Positions 1 to 43,549 are shown, counted from the stretch's first letter. The stretch is 64,000 nucleotides of DNA from Bacteroidota bacterium (GCA_018267275.1 JAFDYV010000007.1:186001-250000); one strand, 5' to 3'. Translations and numbers: made by a program. Notes: generated by a model not told the origin, from the letters alone.

Positions 1-774
1 ATCCGAATAAAGCTTTTTTTGGTAGCAATAACCTTGCTAAACTCTTCGGCTTATGTTCGGCCCCCCGGATTTAAGTTAGAGACCATCGTGATTGACCCTG
101 GCCACGGAGGCAAAGACCCCGGCACCCTTGGCAAAAAGGCCAAAGAGAAGGATGTGGCTTTAAAGATCTCCTTGAAATTGGGCAAGTATATTGAAAAGAA
201 CTTCCCTGATGTAAAGGTGATATATACCCGCAAGGATGATCGCTACGTGGCATTGGATGAGCGTGCTGAAATTGCCAACCGAAACAAGGCGCAATTGTTC
301 ATTTGCATCCACGCCAACTCCCTGCCGGGTGCCCCTGCCTACGGCACCGAGACATACGTGATGGGGTTGCACAAAGACAAGGGCAATTTTGAAGTGGCCA
401 AGCGTGAGAACTCGGTGATTTTGATGGACGAGAACTACGAGCAACGCTATGAGGGTTTTGACCCGAAGAGTCCGGAGTCATACATTTTATTTACCTTGAG
501 CCAAAGTGTGTACCACGAGAGCAGCCTGAAGTTTGCGCAGAAGCTGGAGCAGCAGTTTAAAACGAAGGGGGGTCGGTTTAGCCGTGGGGTAAAGCAGGCG
601 GGTTTTTTAGTATTGTGGCGAACGGCCATGCCGAGCGTGTTAATTGAAACGGGTTTCTTGTCGAACTCCAAAGAAGAAGGATTTTTGCTGTCAGATGATG
701 GCCAAGATTTAATTGCCTCCGGCATCTTTAGGGCATTTAAGGAATACAAAACCGAGATTGAATCGATAAACTAA
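1..774 (+). CDS. N-acetylmuramoyl-L-alanine amidase, 5' end outside window
   Basis: Zinc-dependent Amidase_3 family enzyme that cuts the bond between N-acetylmuramic acid and the stem peptide during cell separation or wall turnover. The frame is open from base 1 and the first residues are a hydrophobic signal-peptide core, so the true start lies upstream; the TTG at 19 is not a convincing start. Zinc-site motifs are visible: DPGHGG near the N-terminus, CIHAN in the middle and the catalytic-type LIETGFLSN near the C-terminus. It is followed 6 bases later by the MlaD-like gene on the same strand, so the two are probably co-transcribed. The family call is secure; the exact cellular role is inferred. 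Confidence 0.93.
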   Translation: MRIKLFLVAITLLNSSAYVRPPGFKLETIVIDPGHGGKDPGTLGKKAKEKDVALKISLKLGKYIEKNFPDVKVIYTRKDDRYVALDERAEIANRNKAQLFICIHANSLPGAPAYGTETYVMGLHKDKGNFEVAKRENSVILMDENYEQRYEGFDPKSPESYILFTLSQSVYHESSLKFAQKLEQQFKTKGGRFSRGVKQAGFLVLWRTAMPSVLIETGFLSNSKEEGFLLSDDGQDLIASGIFRAFKEYKTEIESIN

Positions 775-780
775 TATTGC

Positions 781-1752
781 GTGAAGACAAAAGAATTTAA
801 AGTTGGGTTGGTGATTGCTTTGGCAATTGCCATGCTGTATTTCGGCTTTAATTATTTGAAGGGCATCGATTTTTTTTCTACCACTCACAAGTACTACGCA
901 GTTTACGATAACATCGATCAGTTGGCGATTTCAAACCCTGTGTTAATCAACGGATATCCAGTCGGCCGCGTGAGTCGAATTCAAATCATGCAGAACAGAC
1001 AGCACAAAGTTTTGGTGGAGTTTGACATCGAATCAGAGATTAAACTTACTGATTCGACCACCGCTATTTTGAATAGCGCACTCTTGGGCGGAAAGTCAGT
1101 ATTGTTGCGCATTGGCGGATCTAAAAAATTTATCAACCCAGGCGATACGCTACGTTCTGAAGTTGCAAAGGGAATGTTCGATGTGATTTCAGAAACTGCT
1201 ACACCCGTAGCGACCGACCTGCAAACTACGCTGCGTAAATTCAATGTTATTGTTGACAACCTTCTTAAGAACTCGCAACAGCTTGAAGTGATTTTTGCAA
1301 AGCTGCAAACAACACCAGATCTGCTTAACAAAACATTGGTTACGGCCGATGGCAAAATCATAGAACTGTCTTCGACTTTTAAAAAGGTAGCCGAGAACTT
1401 GGACGGTACCCTTACGGAGTTGAAACCTACGCTGAGCAATTTTAAAACATTGTCAGACAGTTTGAAGATGCTGAAGCTCAACCAGACGTTGACGAAGACA
1501 CAGCAAACTATTTCGAGCCTCAATCAAACATTGTCTCGATTAAACAAAGGTGACAACACCATGAGTAAATTGATGACGGAAGATACGCTCTACGTTAACC
1601 TTAATAAGCTGTTGAGGTCGTTGGATAGCCTGGCCATACACTTTAATTCGAATCCGAAACACTTCTTGGCACCTCTGGGCAAGAGTAAGAAGAAAATAGA
1701 TCGTGATCGCAGAAAAGAGGAAGAATTAAGAAAAGCAGCGCAAAAGAAGTAA
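781..1752 (+). CDS. MlaD/MCE family lipid-transport protein
   Basis: 323 residues from a GTG start that lies 6 bases after the amidase stop. An N-terminal transmembrane anchor (about residues 7-24) is followed by an MCE domain (about 35-120, with the NPVLINGYPVGRV stretch), then a long region of predicted alpha-helical coiled coil, and a lysine/arginine-rich tail. MCE proteins form rings that move phospholipids between the inner and outer membranes, with an ABC ATPase and permease. Those partners are not in this window. Coupling with a wall amidase suggests an envelope-maintenance operon (inference). Confidence 0.88.
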   Translation: MKTKEFKVGLVIALAIAMLYFGFNYLKGIDFFSTTHKYYAVYDNIDQLAISNPVLINGYPVGRVSRIQIMQNRQHKVLVEFDIESEIKLTDSTTAILNSALLGGKSVLLRIGGSKKFINPGDTLRSEVAKGMFDVISETATPVATDLQTTLRKFNVIVDNLLKNSQQLEVIFAKLQTTPDLLNKTLVTADGKIIELSSTFKKVAENLDGTLTELKPTLSNFKTLSDSLKMLKLNQTLTKTQQTISSLNQTLSRLNKGDNTMSKLMTEDTLYVNLNKLLRSLDSLAIHFNSNPKHFLAPLGKSKKKIDRDRRKEEELRKAAQKK

Positions 1753-1797
1753 GGCGCACCCAATCTGTAATCTAAAATCTATAATCTGTAATTTCTG
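1753..1797. repeat. short direct repeat of the AATCTGTAATCT type
   Basis: The spacer between the MlaD-like gene and the carboxylase gene consists largely of near-repeats of TAATCTGTAATCT/AAATCTATAATC. It is a low-complexity intergenic repeat, similar in style to those at 3424-3508 and 37199-37290. No gene or clear promoter is visible in it. Confidence 0.5.
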
Positions 1798-3423
1798 ATG
1801 GATTTAGAATTCAATAAGAACGAGGATCAGCTCAAGCAACTCTGCTTTCAGCTTAAAACGAAAGCAAAGAAAACCATGTTGGGAGGTGGGGAGAAAAAAA
1901 TAGACGAGCAACACCAAAAAGGAAAACTTACGGCCCGCGAGCGCATCGAATACTTGACCGACAAAGGTTCTGAGTTTTTAGAGGTTGCACTCTTTGCTGG
2001 TGACGGCATGTACAAGGAGCAAGGGGGATGCCCTTCGGGTGGTGTGATAACAGGCATCGGTTTTGTCAAAGGCAGGCAATGTGTGATTGTGGCAAACGAT
2101 GCCACAGTAAAAGCCGGAGCTTGGTTTCCAATTACGGCAAAAAAGAACCTGCGGGCACAAGAGATAGCAATTGAAAACCGGTTGCCGATTATTTATCTAG
2201 TTGACAGCGCAGGTGTCTTCCTGCCGATGCAAGACGAAATTTTTCCGGATAAAGAACATTTTGGAAGACAGTTTCGCAACAATGCCAAGATGAGTAGCAT
2301 GGGCATTGTGCAGGTGGCAGCCATCATGGGCAGTTGCGTGGCTGGTGGCGCTTATTTACCGATTATGTCTGACGAGGCCATGATTGTAGATAAAACGGGC
2401 TCTATCTTTTTGGCGGGATCGTACTTGGTGAAAGCTGCGATTGGCGAAGAAATCGACAACGAAACACTGGGCGGGGCAACTACGCACTGCGAAATCTCGG
2501 GCGTCACGGATAACAAGTTTCCCAACGACCAGGCGTGTCTCGATCACATCCGCGATTTGTTTGACAAGATTGGCGACTACGAAAAGGCGGGTTTCAATCG
2601 CGAAAATCCCAGCTTGCCGAAAGAAAAGCAAGAAGAGATTTATGGATTGTTGCCAGCCGATCGTACCAAACCGTATGATATGGTTGAAATAATCAAGCGT
2701 TTGGTGGATGGATCTGAGTTTGACGAGTACAAAGCCCTTTATGGTAAAACAATTGTATGTGGTTTTGCCCGGATTGATGGTTGGGCTGTGGGCATTGTAG
2801 CGAACCAACGCAAGGTGGTGAAGACAAAGAAAGGTGAGATGCAGATGGGTGGCGTCATTTATTCAGATGCAGCAGACAAAGCTGCGCGCTTCATCATGAA
2901 TTGCAACCAGCGTAAAGTTCCATTGATTTTTTTGCAAGATGTAAGTGGTTTTATGGTGGGTAGTAAGGCCGAGCACGGTGGAATCATCAAAGATGGTGCT
3001 AAAATGGTGAATGCCATGGCCAATTCAACGGTTCCGAAGTTTACGTTCATCATCGGTAACTCGTATGGAGCTGGCAACTATGCGATGTGCGGTAAAGCCT
3101 ACGATCCGCGATTGATTTATGCTTGGCCTACGGCTCAAATAGCAGTGATGAGCGGGAACTCTGCCGCAAAAACATTGTTGCAGATAAAGGTGAGTTCAAT
3201 GAAAGCGCAAGGAAAAACACTGACTAAAGAAGAGGAGGACGTGCTTTTAAAAGAGATTACCGATAGGTATAACGAGCAGCTTAGTCCGTATTATGCAGCT
3301 TCGCGCCTTTGGGTGGATGGCGTCATCGATCCATTGGACACCCGGAAAGTAGTATCGATGGGCATTGAAGCTGCCAATCATGCGGAGGTTGAGAAGTTTA
3401 ATGTTGGGGTAATTCAAACATAG
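1798..3423 (+). CDS. acyl-CoA carboxylase beta subunit (methylcrotonyl-CoA carboxylase-like)
   Basis: Carboxyltransferase subunit of a biotin-dependent acyl-CoA carboxylase, 541 residues, the usual length for this family. It moves carboxyl from carboxybiotin to an acyl-CoA. The N-terminal half has the acyl-CoA-binding crotonase-like fold (GGCPSGGVITGIG) and the C-terminal half carries the second oxyanion-hole region (GNSYGAGNYAMCGKAYDPR). The segment GVFLPMQDEIFPDKEHFGR is typical of methylcrotonyl-CoA carboxylase beta chains from leucine breakdown rather than propionyl-CoA carboxylase, but substrate is not proven. No biotin-carrier alpha subunit is in the window. It depends on bicarbonate and biotin, supplied by systems encoded further along. 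Confidence 0.93.
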   Translation: MDLEFNKNEDQLKQLCFQLKTKAKKTMLGGGEKKIDEQHQKGKLTARERIEYLTDKGSEFLEVALFAGDGMYKEQGGCPSGGVITGIGFVKGRQCVIVANDATVKAGAWFPITAKKNLRAQEIAIENRLPIIYLVDSAGVFLPMQDEIFPDKEHFGRQFRNNAKMSSMGIVQVAAIMGSCVAGGAYLPIMSDEAMIVDKTGSIFLAGSYLVKAAIGEEIDNETLGGATTHCEISGVTDNKFPNDQACLDHIRDLFDKIGDYEKAGFNRENPSLPKEKQEEIYGLLPADRTKPYDMVEIIKRLVDGSEFDEYKALYGKTIVCGFARIDGWAVGIVANQRKVVKTKKGEMQMGGVIYSDAADKAARFIMNCNQRKVPLIFLQDVSGFMVGSKAEHGGIIKDGAKMVNAMANSTVPKFTFIIGNSYGAGNYAMCGKAYDPRLIYAWPTAQIAVMSGNSAAKTLLQIKVSSMKAQGKTLTKEEEDVLLKEITDRYNEQLSPYYAASRLWVDGVIDPLDTRKVVSMGIEAANHAEVEKFNVGVIQT

Positions 3424-6993: not shown

Positions 6994-8328
6994 ATGAGAA
7001 TCATATTGTTGATGGTTGGGATACTGTTTTCTGTCCAAGCTTTCGCGCAAAGCGGCAAGAAGCAGGTGATGGTGATGGATATTAAGGATGAAATTGACCC
7101 GCGTATGCTCAGGTATGTCAAACTGGCCTTCGAGCATGCAGATAAGATAAAAGCCGATTACGTCATCATAGACATGGATACATATGGTGGAGTACTAACA
7201 GATGCCAAGGAGATTGTTGACGTTGTGATGGATTCTAAAAAACCTGTTTGGGTGTTTATCAATTCAGATGCAGCCTCTGCCGGGGCGTTGATCTCAATTG
7301 CTTGCGATAGTATCTACATGTCGCCTGGCGCAAGCATTGGTGCCGCCACCGTGGTGGAAGGCGATGGTAAACAAGCGCCCGACAAATACCAGTCATACAT
7401 GCGGTCTATCATGCGCTCAACGGCAGAAGAAAATCATCGTGACCCGCGCATTGCCGAAGGCATGGTAGATGAGCGCGTGGTGATTGACAGCGTGAAGCAA
7501 GCCGGTAAAGTGATTACGTTCACCACCACAGAAGCCATTGCCCACGGCTATTGTGAAGCAAAGGTGGAGTCGATTGAAGAAATTTTGAAGCGCAACAAAA
7601 TTGAGAACTACGAACTGCATCATTTCAAATTAGGTGCTACGGAAAAAATCATCGCGTTTTTTCTCAACCCATTCATCAGCGGTATTTTGATATTAGTGAT
7701 CTTAGGAGGTATCTATTTTGAGTTGCAAACACCGGGTGTGGGCTTTCCCTTGTTTGCGGCCATCACCGCCTTGGTGCTGTACTTAGTCCCGTATTATCTA
7801 AACGGTTTGGCAGATTATTGGGAAATCATTGCGCTGTTTGTAGGGCTGTTGTTGATAATGGCCGAAATTTTTGTGATACCCGGATTTGGAATAGCGGGCG
7901 TAGCAGGCATCACGCTTACATTGGTTTCTTTGGTACTCATCATGCTCAATAACGATTTTTTCAATTTCGAGTTTGTACCGCTGGGCGATATTGTGCAGGC
8001 GAGTTTTGTGGCGGTGGCCGGGCTGGCAGGTGGTTTCTTGCTATTGATATTTGCCGGACCGAAGTTGCTGGAGTCGAAAGCATTTCAACGAATTGCCTTG
8101 AATGACGCGCAGAACAGTGCCGAGGGTTATACTGTAAATGCCAATGCACAGTCGATGCTCAACAAGAAGGGCGTTGCACACACGGTGTTAAGACCAAGTG
8201 GAAAAATATTGCTGGATGGCGAGGTGCTGGATGCGTTCACGCGGGGTGAGTTTATTGAAAAAGGTGAGGCAGTGGAAGTAATTGGCACCGAAGGGGTGAC
8301 GTTGAGAGTTCGAAAAATCACTGAATAA
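6994..8328 (+). CDS. NfeD-family membrane-bound serine protease
   Basis: 444 residues. A signal peptide (1-18) is followed by a ClpP-class protease domain (about 25-210); AASAGALISIACDSIYM carries the candidate Ser nucleophile and a downstream Lys (near DKYQSYM) could complete the Ser-Lys dyad. Residues about 220-370 hold four or five membrane helices, and the last about 60 residues form the OB-fold NfeD domain. Long NfeD proteases often pair with a stomatin/flotillin-type protein, but none is encoded next to it here. Its role in membrane protein quality control is inferred from the family. Confidence 0.9.
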   Translation: MRIILLMVGILFSVQAFAQSGKKQVMVMDIKDEIDPRMLRYVKLAFEHADKIKADYVIIDMDTYGGVLTDAKEIVDVVMDSKKPVWVFINSDAASAGALISIACDSIYMSPGASIGAATVVEGDGKQAPDKYQSYMRSIMRSTAEENHRDPRIAEGMVDERVVIDSVKQAGKVITFTTTEAIAHGYCEAKVESIEEILKRNKIENYELHHFKLGATEKIIAFFLNPFISGILILVILGGIYFELQTPGVGFPLFAAITALVLYLVPYYLNGLADYWEIIALFVGLLLIMAEIFVIPGFGIAGVAGITLTLVSLVLIMLNNDFFNFEFVPLGDIVQASFVAVAGLAGGFLLLIFAGPKLLESKAFQRIALNDAQNSAEGYTVNANAQSMLNKKGVAHTVLRPSGKILLDGEVLDAFTRGEFIEKGEAVEVIGTEGVTLRVRKITE

Positions 8329-38384: not shown

Positions 38385-40487
38385 CTAACTAACCGTGGCA
38401 CCCGGACTCACTCCCTCGTTGGGTTGTAACAAACGAAGTTTGCCGTCTTTATCGGCAGCCATCAAAATCATTCCTTGCGATTCGACACCCATTATTTTGC
38501 GCGGAGCGAGGTTCACCAAGATGGTAACTTGCTTACCCGTTACTTCTTCCGGTGAAAAATGTTCGGCAATACCGCTCATCACCGTGCGCGTGTCAATGCC
38601 AGTGTCCACTTGCAGTTTCAACAACTTTTTTGATTTCTCTACCCGTTCTGCTTGTAAAATCGTGCCCACACGAATATCCATTTTTTGAAAATCGTCAAAA
38701 CTGATTTCGGGCTTGGCAGGTTCTGCAGGCTGATTGGCGAGTTCCATTGCTTTTTTGTTGTCGTTTAGTTTTTTGATTTGTGCGTTGATTACTTCGTCTT
38801 CAATTTTTTCGAATAGCAGGGTAGGAGCCCCCAATGAATGCCCCACTGCTAATAATTCTGAATTGCCCGCTTGCGCCCATTTGCCTGCTGATTGTTGCAG
38901 CATCTCACGTAGTTTTGTTGCAGAAAATGGCAAAAATGGTTCGGCCACAATCGAGAGGTTGGCAGCAATCTGCAAGGCAACGTTCAAAATTGTGCCCACG
39001 CGAGCCATATCTGTTTTCGCCAGTTTCCATGGTTCTGTTTCTGCTAAATACTTGTTGCCCAATCGAGCCAAATCCATTAACCCCGCAGTTGCTTCGCGGA
39101 AGCGATAACTCTCCAGGGATTGTCCGATGCGGCTGGGGAATTCCTTTAACTCGGCCAGCACTTTGCTGTCTGTTTCCGATAGCACACCCAATGCAGGTAC
39201 TTTATTATCGAAATATTTTTGTGTGAGCACTAACGCACGGTTCACAAAATTTCCAAAAATGGCTACCAACTCGTTATTGTTCTTCGCTTGAAAATCCTTC
39301 CACGTGAACTCGCTGTCTTTGGTCTCTGGCAAGTTGGTGAGCAGCGCATAGCGGAGCACATCGGGTTTGTCAGGAAAATCGGCTAGGTACTCATGCATTT
39401 CAATCGACCAGCCGCGGCTCGTGCTCATCTTATCGCCTTCCAAATTCATAAACTCATTGGCGGGTACATTGTCGGGCAAAATATACTCACCGGTAGCATG
39501 GAGCATGATGGGAAAAATAATGCAGTGAAAGACAATGTTGTCTTTTCCCACAAAATGTAAAAGCTTAGTGTCTTTGTCTTGCCAGTATTTTTTCCAATCG
39601 TCTGCGGTGGCACCTGCAAAATATTTTTGAGGCGTGGCAAACTTTGTCTTGTTTGTCGTGATTTCTTGAAACAACGCACGTGTAGCAGATATATAACCAA
39701 TGGGTGCATCGAACCATACATACAAAACTTTGCCTTCGGCATCGGGCAATGGTACTTTGATTCCCCAATCCAAGTCGCGTGTCATGGCGCGGGGCTGCAG
39801 GCCGGCATCAATCCAAGATTTACATTGGCCGTACACATTTACCTTCCAATCATCTTTGTGCGATTTCAAAATCCAATCGCTAAGCCATGTTTCATAATTC
39901 TGCAATGGCAAATACCAGTGCTTGGTAGATTTCAGCACGGGCGGGTTGCCCGAGAGCGTGCTGCGCGGATTAATAAGTTCACGGGGACTTAACGTGGAGC
40001 CACATTTTTCGCACTGGTCGCCATAGGCGTTTGGGTTGCCGCACTTAGGGCAAGTGCCCATAATGTAGCGGTCGGCCAAAAAGGTGTTGGCCGTCACATC
40101 AAAGTACTGTTCAGAAATTTCTTCGGTCAGCAGCCCCTTATTGTAAAGTGTTTTGAAAATCTCTTGCGAGGTTTGGTGATGGATGGGCTCGCTGGTGCGG
40201 TGGTAAATGTCGAACGACATACCCAACTTGAAAAAGCAATCGCGTATCTGCGCATCGTATTTATCGATGATGGCCTTGGGCGTAGTATTTTCTTTTAGCG
40301 CTTGGTTGGGGATGGCCGTGCCGTGTTCATCGCTGCCGCATACAAACACCACATCTCGCCCTTGCGACCGCAAATACCGCACATACACATCAGATGGTAT
40401 GTATGCGCCCGCCAGGTGACCGATGTGCTTGGGGCCGTTGGCATAGGGCAATGCAGCGGTAACTAAATATCTTTTTGGTTCAGTCAT
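38385..40487 (-). CDS. metG: methionyl-tRNA synthetase
   Basis: 700 residues, class I synthetase with C-terminal tRNA-binding (Trbp111-like) extension. HIGH-type [16 protein letters not shown], zinc knuckle [23 protein letters not shown] motif ([10 protein letters not shown]) and the terminal [22 protein letters not shown]-fold domain are all present. Essential translation enzyme charging initiator and elongator tRNA-Met. Confidence 0.98.
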
Positions 40488-40568: not shown

Positions 40569-42764
40569 TTAGGTAGCAATAAATGGGTTACTTGCCTTGC
40601 CGCCTTGTTCGGCATCCTGCTCCCTCTTTTCGTATTCAACTTGGCGCTCCATCTCTTGCCGGTATTCCGATTCTAAAAAGGTGTTCCAAGCTTTAATCTG
40701 TTCGGTGGCATCGAGCGTAAGTTTCAACGAGAAGGTAGTGCCTTCCTTCGAAGTCTTCTCCAATTTGATGGTACCTTCCAATTTGTCGGCAATTACTTTG
40801 CAGAGGTAAAGGCCAACGCCACCAATGTCCGAGCGTTCGGATCCGCGCAAAAACATAGTGAATACGTCTTGGCCTGGTTTCATGATGATTCCTACACCGT
40901 TGTCTTCCACTTTGATGAGGGCATCAGATCCGGAAGTGCTTACAGTTATTTTTACATAGGGGTCAATACGCGTGGACTCATTGAAGAACTTCAACGAGTT
41001 GTCCACCATATTTTCCAGAATTAAATGGATCAGGTATGGGTCTGAAATCATTTTGAGCCCCGGCTCAACGTCCACCAGCACACGTATGTGTTTGAGTTGT
41101 CCGTTCTTCTTTTCAAAATCCACTATGTCGTTGAGCAATGCATGGAAGTCGATCACTTCGGGTTTCAAAAATGTATTTTGGATACTCGTAACCATAGAGA
41201 TGCGGTTGAGTATCTTATATATTTTTTCAATTTGCACCCCTTCACGTACAATCAAATCCTTTAACTCTTCCGGTTCGTTTTGTTTGGTGGTGATTAGGTT
41301 GTAAAGCCCTTTGAGTGTAGCCACAGGGCCACGTATGTCATGCGAAGTTTTATATAAAAAGTTGTTGAGATCGTGCTGTGCTTTTAAAAGCTTCTCGTTT
41401 GATTTTTGGAGTTCTTTGGTGCGCTCCAGCACTTTTTGTTCTAGTTCTTCATTATGCCTTTTGAGTTTGGCACTGTACGTTCTGCCCGATTGAATGGCGA
41501 AGTAGGTGAAACCGAGCAGCAATAATGCAATGACCATTGCCAAAACGGTGATGGTACGCTGCTTGCCCAGCACTTGGTCTTTTAAGGCGATAATGTCGTT
41601 TTGTTCGCTGATGGTTTTGATGTTTTCACGCTCAGCAAAGTTTGCTTGCACTTTTGCAAGGTTCTTAATCAAGTCTTCAGAATAAATGCTGTCTTTTAGT
41701 TTAATGTACTTGCTTTGGTACAAAGACGAATTTTTAAAATCTTTATCATCTGTATAGAGAGTGGAAAATTCTTTATAAACCTCTATTAATGGAATTAGAT
41801 AATTGGTTTTTATGGCAAGCTTTTCGGATTCCTTTAGGTATTCTATGCCCTTACTTCTGTTTCCTCTCTTTACTTCATTTGATCCTAAGTTCCATAAATT
41901 TTCAATTTCAAATCTTGTATCGTTAAGTTGCTTCGATAGTTCTAGTGATTTCAAAAAGTGTTCTACGGCTTCGTCTCTATGCCCTTGCTCAGACAATGAA
42001 ACACCAAGACTGAACTCCGCTGGCATCACAACTTTATCGTCACACTTTTCGCCACAAAAGGCGAATGTTTCTTTTATTTTTTTCTCTGCCTCTGCATACT
42101 GTTTGTTTTGATTGTAAGCCAAAGCAAGGTTAACAAGCAATTTATCCAAATCGTAACTGCTATTAATCTCTCGTTTTAACTCGAGTGACTTTGTAAAATT
42201 TGTAATCGCGTTCTCCCAATCCTTGAGTTTAAAAAACACGAAGCCAATGTTATTGAAATTCAAACTGGCAGATTCTTTATCACCAAGCTTTTCGTTGATT
42301 TGCAAAGCTTGAAAATGATATTCGAGCGATTTGTCATAGTTACCGTTAAGGGAATAAACGATTGCGAGCGTATTGAGTATCTTCACGGATTCAGTCTCAA
42401 ACTTATTTCTATTCGCAATGCCCAACGACTTCGTTAAACTTGCCACGGCCTCTCTCGTCATGTTCAGCTTAGACTGTATGAATCCTCGCGCATAAATCGC
42501 TTTTTCGATTCTCAGACTATCGTTCATCGAAGTAGCAATTTTTTCGGCTGCAAATGATAGTTCAAGTGCTTTTGTTGCATCGTACTTGAGCAAAACACGC
42601 ATTAATTCAAGTGTGGCATCAAATTGATCAGTACCTTTTGAGTTCTGCACGGCTGCATTTAGGGAGTCGATTTTTTCTTGGTCATTCTGGGCTTTAGAGG
42701 GAAGCGTAATAATCATTAATGCTGCAGCAACATGTATCCAGAGAAGCCTACTACAATTCAACAT
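40569..42764 (-). CDS. TPR-containing sensor histidine kinase
   Basis: 731 residues from ATG 42764, which begins a signal peptide (MLNCSRLLWIHVAAALMII); the longer frame to 42848 would bury it. About eight TPR units fill residues 75-370 on the periplasmic side, one transmembrane helix (TVLAMVIALLLLGFTYFA) lies about residue 410-430, then a coiled coil and a HisKA-type domain with SHDIRGPVATLKGL. The ATPase domain follows with DNGVGI and GGVGLYL. No receiver domain or DNA-binding partner is encoded beside it. Divergent from the four short peptide genes at 42882. Confidence 0.88.
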   Translation of the reverse strand: MLNCSRLLWIHVAAALMIITLPSKAQNDQEKIDSLNAAVQNSKGTDQFDATLELMRVLLKYDATKALELSFAAEKIATSMNDSLRIEKAIYARGFIQSKLNMTREAVASLTKSLGIANRNKFETESVKILNTLAIVYSLNGNYDKSLEYHFQALQINEKLGDKESASLNFNNIGFVFFKLKDWENAITNFTKSLELKREINSSYDLDKLLVNLALAYNQNKQYAEAEKKIKETFAFCGEKCDDKVVMPAEFSLGVSLSEQGHRDEAVEHFLKSLELSKQLNDTRFEIENLWNLGSNEVKRGNRSKGIEYLKESEKLAIKTNYLIPLIEVYKEFSTLYTDDKDFKNSSLYQSKYIKLKDSIYSEDLIKNLAKVQANFAERENIKTISEQNDIIALKDQVLGKQRTITVLAMVIALLLLGFTYFAIQSGRTYSAKLKRHNEELEQKVLERTKELQKSNEKLLKAQHDLNNFLYKTSHDIRGPVATLKGLYNLITTKQNEPEELKDLIVREGVQIEKIYKILNRISMVTSIQNTFLKPEVIDFHALLNDIVDFEKKNGQLKHIRVLVDVEPGLKMISDPYLIHLILENMVDNSLKFFNESTRIDPYVKITVSTSGSDALIKVEDNGVGIIMKPGQDVFTMFLRGSERSDIGGVGLYLCKVIADKLEGTIKLEKTSKEGTTFSLKLTLDATEQIKAWNTFLESEYRQEMERQVEYEKREQDAEQGGKASNPFIAT

Positions 42765-42881
42765 ACAATACCCGCGTGACAAAAGACCTAAAATCATCTG
42801 GAATGGAAGTTTCAATTCGAACAATTTTGACTTGTCAAGTAAAACCAAAAAAACCTTTTAACCAAATAAAAAATTATCCCT

Positions 42882-43016
42882 ATGAAAAAGTTATTCTACT
42901 CTCTCGCATTGCTTTTAGTGTTGTCGGTTGTAGCTATCTCCTGCACCAAAGAGGAAATTAAACCTCAAAATGGTGGCAACAATGGTGGCGTTCAAACGAG
43001 CGACAAAGGTTTCTAG
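42882..43016 (+). CDS. 44-residue surface-type lipoprotein peptide 1
   Basis: Too short for usual ORF thresholds. MKKLFYSLALLLVLSVV is a signal sequence, AISC the lipidation site, followed by TKEE (a K-(D/E)2 pattern at +2 to +4, like the Capnocytophaga surface-export signal) and a C-terminus GGNNGGVQTSDKGF. The mature part differs from peptides 2 and 3 by only two residues. It lies 117 bases from the divergent TPR kinase gene. Function unknown. Confidence 0.85.
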   Translation: MKKLFYSLALLLVLSVVAISCTKEEIKPQNGGNNGGVQTSDKGF

Positions 43017-43055
43017 TAGTTAATTAGCATTTCACATTCTAAAATTTAGAAAACT

Positions 43056-43190
43056 ATGAGAAAGACGTTTTTATATATTCTATTGTTTGCGGTAATCACT
43101 GTAAGTGCCATGTCATGCACAAAGGAGGAAGTGAAGCCACAAGGTGGTGGTAATAATGGTGGTGTTCAAACGAGCGACAAAGGTTTCTAG
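43056..43190 (+). CDS. 44-residue surface-type lipoprotein peptide 2
   Basis: Same architecture as peptide 1 (MRKTFLYILLFAVITVSAMS signal, Cys, TKEE, then GGNNGGVQTSDKGF). The mature peptide is identical in amino acids to that of peptide 3. The spacer from peptide 1 (39 bases) is also similar to that before peptide 3, so the unit (gene plus spacer, about 171 bases) was duplicated. Confidence 0.87.
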   Translation: MRKTFLYILLFAVITVSAMSCTKEEVKPQGGGNNGGVQTSDKGF

Positions 43191-43226
43191 TTAATTAACA
43201 TTTTACATTCTAAAATTTAAAAATCG

Positions 43227-43361
43227 ATGAGAAAGACATTTTTATATACTCTATTGTTGGCTGTAATCACCCTAAGTGCCGTCTCATGTACAAAAGAGGA
43301 AGTGAAGCCTCAAGGTGGTGGCAATAATGGCGGTGTCCAAACCAGTGACAAAGGATTTTAA
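43227..43361 (+). CDS. 44-residue surface-type lipoprotein peptide 3
   Basis: Mature sequence identical to peptide 2, while 10 of its 24 codons carry synonymous changes (for example TGC/TGT, CCA/CCT, GTT/GTC, ACG/ACC) and none is nonsynonymous. Changes that do alter residues are confined to the signal peptide. This is direct evidence that the mature peptide is translated and constrained. Confidence 0.9.
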   Translation: MRKTFLYTLLLAVITLSAVSCTKEEVKPQGGGNNGGVQTSDKGF

Positions 43362-43393
43362 CTGATGATTTAAAAAGATAAATACAAAGTACT

Positions 43394-43549
43394 ATGAAAA
43401 CTAAATTGGCAGTAGTAGCAGTTCTCGTAACGCTAGTAATGGTGTCTTTTGCGTTTACGGTATCAAAAAAGGAAGTTAAGGCAAGCACTGAGTCAACTAC
43501 TTCAAAATCAGAACCGGTTGGTGGTTTTGTATCTGAAGGTAGCTTTTGA
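43394..43549 (+). CDS. 51-residue exported peptide 4
   Basis: MKTKLAVVAVLVTLVMVSFAFTV is a signal sequence; no Cys follows it, so it is not lipidated. The rest (SKKEVKAST...PVGGFVSEGSF) is a divergent relative of peptides 1-3, sharing KEVK and an ending in Gly-x-Phe / Gly-Ser-Phe. It follows peptide 3 by 32 bases and is probably in the same transcript. Confidence 0.72.
   Translation: MKTKLAVVAVLVTLVMVSFAFTVSKKEVKASTESTTSKSEPVGGFVSEGSF

Follow-up and report, generated by a model that had tools for sequence, protein, structure and literature searches.

The ligands of the periplasmic TPR sensor kinases of Bacteroidota are unknown, and the locus described here raises the question of whether one such kinase takes its signal from tiny peptides encoded immediately beside it. 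The window analysed, i.e., the whole stretch of 64,000 nucleotides from a Bacteroidota bacterium, had received an initial annotation that placed four tiny ORFs in a row, 117 bases from the ATG of a divergent sensor histidine kinase, and all of these assignments were confirmed (Table 1). It had also regarded the four as a single array, and while all four ORFs are real, the 51-residue gene is not a fourth member of the repeat: the ORFs form two families, A, with three copies, and B.

Table 1. Features of the kinase and peptide locus in the window, followed by features of other loci (locus labels and positions as in those loci).
Feature	Position	Strand	Description	Basis or remark
metG	38385..40487	-	downstream of kinase; context, outside the system	synteny in nearly all loci
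Sensor histidine kinase	40569..42764	-	731 aa, ATG 42764	Pfam, AF2
Catalytic half	40695..41381	-	residues about 462-690	HisKA, HATPase_c
TPR sensor domain	41679..42677	-	residues about 30-362, predicted periplasmic	AF2, PDB matches, coevolution
Intergenic region kinase/A1	42765..42881	.	divergent, 117 bases	
A1	42882..43016	+	44-aa predicted lipoprotein, mature CTKEEIKPQNGGNNGGVQTSDKGF	ORF; homologues beside orthologous kinases
A1 tail, last 10 codons	42984..43013	+	GGVQTSDKGF	proposed recognised element, from sequence
A2	43056..43190	+	44-aa predicted lipoprotein, mature CTKEEVKPQGGGNNGGVQTSDKGF	ORF
A2 tail	43158-43187	+	GGVQTSDKGF	same as A1 tail
A3	43227..43361	+	44-aa predicted lipoprotein, mature part as in A2	ORF
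A3 tail	43329-43358	+	GGVQTSDKGF	same as A1 tail
B	43394..43549	+	51 aa, Sec-like N-terminus, no lipobox, tail EPVGGFVSEGSF	second family
B tail, last 10 codons	43517..43546	+	VGGFVSEGSF	tracks TPR domain distance; resembles same-locus A tail
Half-kinase paralogue, L037	7352-8794			
Half-kinase paralogue, L042	6520-7947			
Half-kinase paralogue, L043	9620-11173			
Half-kinase paralogue, L062	5129-6538			
Half-kinase paralogue, L090	399-4993			
Half-kinase paralogues, L049	13438-14913, 15027-16376			
Second system, L056, lipopeptide	392-526	+		
Second system, L056, kinase	743-2512			
Second system, L056, regulator	2505-3227			
Second system, L219, lipopeptide	just upstream of kinase starting 3444	-		
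Second system, L220, lipopeptide	1150-1284	+		

The A genes lie in tandem (repeat family D1, 171 nt, at spacings of 174 and 171), and each product has a signal peptide, a lipobox cysteine, an acidic start, an I/V-x-P motif, a Gly/Asn linker and a C-terminal tail of about 10 residues, with all three copies in the window ending in GGNNGGVQTSDKGF; their designation as lipoproteins is a reading of the lipobox. B is normally single-copy and always lies behind the last A of an array, and across loci, adjacent to the kinase, the A products have 39-57 residues and those of B 47-65. Neither family had a match above cut-off in Pfam or NCBIfam; weak matches to DUF6520 (PF20130) occurred in five of 24 B members (best E 0.0028), and the B of the window reached 13.5 bits, short of the gathering score of 25.4. 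Weak matches of the peptides to the Phr and AimP models covered the signal sequence only and were discarded. The LES surface-export signal has the form C-X-K-(D/E)2-X in Capnocytophaga and consists of polar plus acidic residues in other Bacteroidota (PMC5080379). The resemblance to the Capnocytophaga form pointed out in the initial annotation holds for A1-A3, which begin C-T-K-E-E, and not as an exact motif among relatives, which mostly begin C-T-E-E-E/N; by sequence, these starts fit the LES description and constitute a putative surface signal. Some A tails contain two cysteines (e.g., CQFGC, CQWGGPGC and CGGLPC; L038_9828, L040_4149, L043_14574, L048, L049_6186, L060, L098 and L046), a pattern that suggests a disulfide-closed loop in those types.

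The kinase carries, in order, a signal sequence, eight TPRs (TPR_12, E 1.7e-29, among other Pfam matches), a TM helix, HisKA and HATPase, with H475, N589, D621 and G623 invariant. The AF2 model of the TPR region has eight helix pairs, mostly at pLDDT >90, and since the signal sequence precedes the TPRs and the TM helix follows them, the sensor is predicted to be periplasmic. The fifth TPR holds a nearly invariant C-x3-C pair (C237 and C241; approximately window 42042-42056, minus strand). Paralogues with TPRs and a TM helix, but without the catalytic half, adjoin the full kinase at the loci listed in Table 1, and three stand in tandem in Pseudochryseolinea flava; no peptide genes were found beside these half-kinases, which are possibly decoy or accessory receptors. 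A search across loci for a promoter or regulator motif common to the region between kinase and A1 found none, and the Bacteroidota -33/-7 promoter pattern is absent from the intergenic region. A perfect palindrome, TTGAC-TT-GTCAA, does lie there (window 42827-42838), and as TTGAC-N2-GTCAA it was rejected as a conserved operator because it is present in only 2 of 34 loci.

That the array is more than a chance row of short frames was borne out both by the selection described below, in arrays of many species, and by a single-sequence search of 36 other genomes of the genus, 31 of which gave a match at E ≤ 1, mostly to short frames. The peptide genes had also been expected to recur beside orthologous kinases in relatives, and they do so across the genus and in other genera. 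The neighbourhoods in the genus have a single layout: metG, kinase, then divergently one to four A genes, one B, sometimes bioB, and then sppA, folK and fabD. Within the genus, B comes next in 33 of the 34 kinase loci with A, the sole exception (L058) being cut by a contig end. Beyond these 34, L065 has frame-broken A repeats plus B, and its repeats, in an assembly of one contig, make up one 287-aa frame-broken ORF (7361-8224) that probably represents several A copies disrupted by sequencing frameshifts. Of the 197 genomes and 84 genera of the family, 40 and 16, respectively, gave a match to a profile of A (E 1e-6), and the unit of one to four A genes and B, divergent from this kinase and mostly next to metG, was found throughout the genus and in 15 further genera. 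A adjoins a kinase homologue in all 22 newly inspected loci outside the genus and, by the filter applied, in 28 of 30 loci of a further set (B being absent from two of those 28, both near contig starts). Named hosts are Pseudochryseolinea flava SDU1-6 and Fulvivirga marina 29W222, and we infer that Chryseolinea serpens DSM 24574 is another. Where the full-length kinase is duplicated (L038, L040, L043 and L049), each copy has its own A and B, with differing tails, and the kinase paralogues without A are either devoid of the catalytic domain or truncated at the end of a contig. In the genome that contains the window, five further kinase loci have no A- or B-type genes adjoining the kinase. A match elsewhere in that genome, on contig C7, was set aside, the stretch examined there having no small signal-type gene and no kinase match.

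A regulator divergent from small, secreted, multi-copy and species-variable products is also what would be seen if the peptides were outputs of the kinase, i.e., secreted toxins, bacteriocins (many of which have these traits) or structural surface peptides. In the neighbourhoods inspected, however, the unit is not accompanied by genes for immunity, modification or dedicated transport, and outputs should track the DNA target of the regulator, not its TPR sensor half and groove positions, as the tails do (below); we regard this explanation as quite unlikely.

The claim that the mature parts of A2 and A3 (24 residues) are identical although 10 of 24 codons differ was correct, all 10 differences being synonymous and none nonsynonymous, and the strong purifying selection deduced from it extends to many species: neighbouring in-array A copies have 80.5 synonymous and 5.5 nonsynonymous differences in the mature part (pN/pS 0.019), with a pN/pS of 0.27 in the signal sequence. 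Gene conversion as the source of identical mature parts was rejected, because silent sites differ widely. Where in-array copies do differ, their last 10 residues are 79% identical (right-aligned), their first eight mature residues 86% and their linkers 58%, and in L236 four A copies with two mature starts all share exactly SGDGSAISETGGF. Because the tail is kept better than the linker and is shared throughout L236, these alignments indicate that the recognised element is probably the C-terminal tail. The initial annotation had proposed a test of relatives for conserved SDKGF endings, and it had counted nonsynonymous drift among homologues as evidence against its interpretation. Tails do change between species, but the drift follows the sensor domain, as predicted for a diversifying ligand-receptor pair. 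Orthologous pairs gave mixed results for positive selection on tails, and no claim of such selection is made.

Between species, the tails of both A and B change with the periplasmic TPR domain and not with the catalytic half or MetG. Across 40 loci, the partial correlation of tail with TPR distances, once the catalytic half and MetG were removed, was 0.49 for A and 0.61 for B (p = 0.001), and the catalytic half, given the TPR domain, added nothing (-0.05 and -0.13). With columns matched for number and conservation, the TPR domain gave 0.45 and 0.57 and the catalytic half -0.02 and -0.08, and in a sliding window along the kinase the sign flips around residue 390, immediately beyond the TPRs. 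Replication in 21 loci of other genera was weaker (0.34, p = 0.001, and 0.36, p = 0.0015), with the catalytic half not significant. Among 28 pairs whose catalytic halves are at least 68% identical, TPR identity predicted tail distance (r -0.81 and -0.87), and neither catalytic identity (0.22, -0.18) nor MetG identity (0.05, -0.25) did so; in the replication set this pairwise contrast is less clean, because there the A tail shows a correlation with MetG identity, too (-0.60 vs -0.65 for TPR). Some kinase pairs are mosaics, in which catalytic halves are 82-93% identical, TPR halves just 35-42%, and the tails differ. In L049_6186 and L040_4149, for example, the catalytic halves are 91% and the TPR halves 40% identical, the break lies near residue 350, and the tails are not the same; L049_9183 and L040_7217, and two L043 paralogues, behave in the same way, as do L238 and L232 of another genus (91% vs 42%). 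In L052, L057 and L059, both TPR halves and tails are kept.

The ligand-facing positions of TPR proteins are 2, 5, 6, 9, 12 and 13 of helix A, and this groove set was fixed before testing. For A and B together, groove positions covary with tails above other positions (p = 3.6e-4). With the A tail, the groove set ranks first of 40 phase shifts and was equalled by none of 5000 random sets; with the B tail, it does not stand out (rank 7; 464 of 5000 random sets). The groove Asn of TPRs 3-5 is nearly invariant, to which little weight is given because TPRs in general often have Asn at position 6. In addition, the A and B tails of a locus are more alike than shuffling would give (p = 2e-4, 46 loci with 33 representatives; e.g., FERI/LERI, SERV/SERI and SDKGF/SEGSF), a likeness in sequence that suggests a common partner; because shuffles take no account of shared ancestry, such p-values are optimistic. 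A and B tail distances are correlated (0.43), but little of this correlation is left after the removal of TPR distance (0.10).

Because the peptide genes adjoin the TPR-coding end, linkage could yield part of the tail/TPR correlation, and it might be argued from this position, and from the mosaic breaks near residue 350, that recombination tracts over adjacent DNA gave tails and TPRs a shared history and no physical interaction. That linkage is not the whole cause is indicated by the groove pattern and by the almost complete absence of nonsynonymous differences between copies of an array, and the likeness of A and B tails, the co-duplication of kinase and peptides, and the retention of A and B beside the kinase across genera likewise speak against linkage only, which we consider very improbable.

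The best reading of these sequence patterns is a ligand-receptor pair with pherotype-like diversification. The proposal of the initial annotation that the peptides are kinase ligands has thus gained strong support from comparison, in the form of universal linkage, co-duplication, selection within arrays and tail/TPR coevolution with mosaic kinases, and we consider it likely that the tails are ligands of the TPR kinase. From what was computed (the genes and their linkage, the selection and coevolution, and the integrity of the kinase with its predicted fold) we infer the remainder, i.e., binding, export, signalling direction, response regulator and output, as follows. The A genes would give rise to short lipoproteins, and B to a second small exported peptide with an A-like tail; the tails would be bound in the groove of the predicted periplasmic eight-TPR domain, setting the activity of the HisKA/HATPase half, which would hand phosphate to a response regulator encoded elsewhere. 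The presence of several A copies would serve as dose, every copy keeping the same mature tail, and tail and TPR half would diverge jointly, giving rise to specificity types, with the output half remaining conserved. As such joint diversification beside a conserved output half is a feature of pheromone systems, an autocrine or intercellular (kin or density) signal is, by analogy, the most likely role of the peptides; the narrower claim of cell-to-cell signalling is held tentatively, at slightly less than an even chance.

Other observations, too, run counter to the ligand reading: the A start is surface-export-like and the sensor predicted to be periplasmic, the B tail has no groove-specific covariation, and the locus has neither a linked response regulator nor a linked target gene. 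A predicted periplasmic sensor fits an intracellular encounter better than it fits a surface-exposed ligand, and A, as a predicted lipoprotein with an export-signal-like start, could with the same ligand and receptor be a tiny reporter of lipoprotein export, nothing passing between cells: were export to stall, periplasmic A would build up, its tail would bind the TPR domain, and the kinase would signal stress, much as in NlpE-Cpx or RcsF-Rcs. A generic reporter, however, would have no need of many copies with one tail, or of a tail and sensor half that are rapidly replaced together, and B is not a lipoprotein; envelope surveillance of this kind is unlikely.

If the tails are indeed ligands, a Gram-negative phylum with cultured hosts available would be added to peptide signalling through kinases. 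The sequences supply candidates for the ligands, residues likely to mediate recognition, and natural variants of specificity, so that the question is testable with synthetic 10-14-mers and purified TPR domains. A second, distinct TPR kinase of the genus (HisKA_2) has a small lipopeptide just upstream on the same strand in all three carriers among 39 genomes, with a PIIIPP-proline-rich tail followed by K or KR, and a REC-LytTR regulator adjoins this kinase in two of the three loci (L056 and L219). This second system hints that the arrangement of peptide and TPR kinase may be more general, and Bacteroidota TPR kinases at large may be peptide receptors. The chances are about even that lipopeptide arrays with a companion peptide, a periplasmic TPR kinase and joint replacement of tail and sensor together represent a new class of Gram-negative Bacteroidota communication. 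No peptide ligands of Bacteroidota TPR kinases were found in the open literature, outside which most subscription journals lie.

Several known systems resemble this one in part. The PDB structures nearest to the modelled TPR domain were the peptide-binding TPR domains of LGN/Pins in complex with target proteins, which fits the ligand reading; these are superhelices solved with their partners, but LGN/Pins is a eukaryotic scaffold at about 20% identity, and the analogy is of fold only. In NlpE-CpxA and RcsF-Rcs, likewise, a lipoprotein serves as ligand for a sensor kinase pathway, a likeness by description; theirs are single larger lipoproteins without diversification of tail and sensor. The nearest kind of kinase is FimS of Porphyromonas gingivalis, a histidine kinase with eight predicted periplasmic TPRs for which a polypeptide ligand has been proposed and the signal stated to be unknown (PMC11053733). 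FimS (NF053520) is the best NCBIfam match of the window kinase, at 107.3 bits against a cut-off of 600, i.e., not as an equivalog, and FimS works with FimR and has no known peptide ligand. No FimS-family genomes were found for a comparison of neighbours, the control being equally silent.

The RRNPP systems (Rap-Phr, PlcR-PapR, NprR and AimR-AimP) place a Sec-exported propeptide, the last residues of which are usually the signal, beside a TPR receptor, and these receptors, described in Firmicutes, are intracellular, of 250-500 aa, with C-terminal TPRs (PMC10075063). The present locus shares with them a propeptide of 10-100 aa beside the receptor and the TPRs themselves, but here the TPRs are N-terminal, in a 731-aa Bacteroidota kinase outside that size and architecture, and predicted to be periplasmic, whereas RRNPP receptors are intracellular and the peptide is re-imported. 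The ComQXPA quorum-sensing system of Bacillus likewise has a small peptide gene beside a membrane histidine kinase. It differs in that here there is no ComQ isoprenyl transferase and no linked ComA (the neighbours being metG, bioB, sppA, folK and fabD), the sensor is a predicted periplasmic TPR domain where that of ComP is a multi-TM domain, and the putative ligand genes are divergent, multi-copy and of two families, with A predicted lipoproteins. Based on the lack of ComQ and a linked ComA, and on the misfit in receptor size and architecture, the system belongs to neither ComQXPA nor RRNPP, and its parts are unrelated to those of ComX-ComP and Phr-Rap. Its pattern of variation resembles that of ComX-ComP, in which the peptide and the N-terminal sensor half are variable and the cytoplasmic kinase half is conserved (PMC4008528): here too, the candidate ligand and the sensor half are polymorphic, and the kinase half is conserved.
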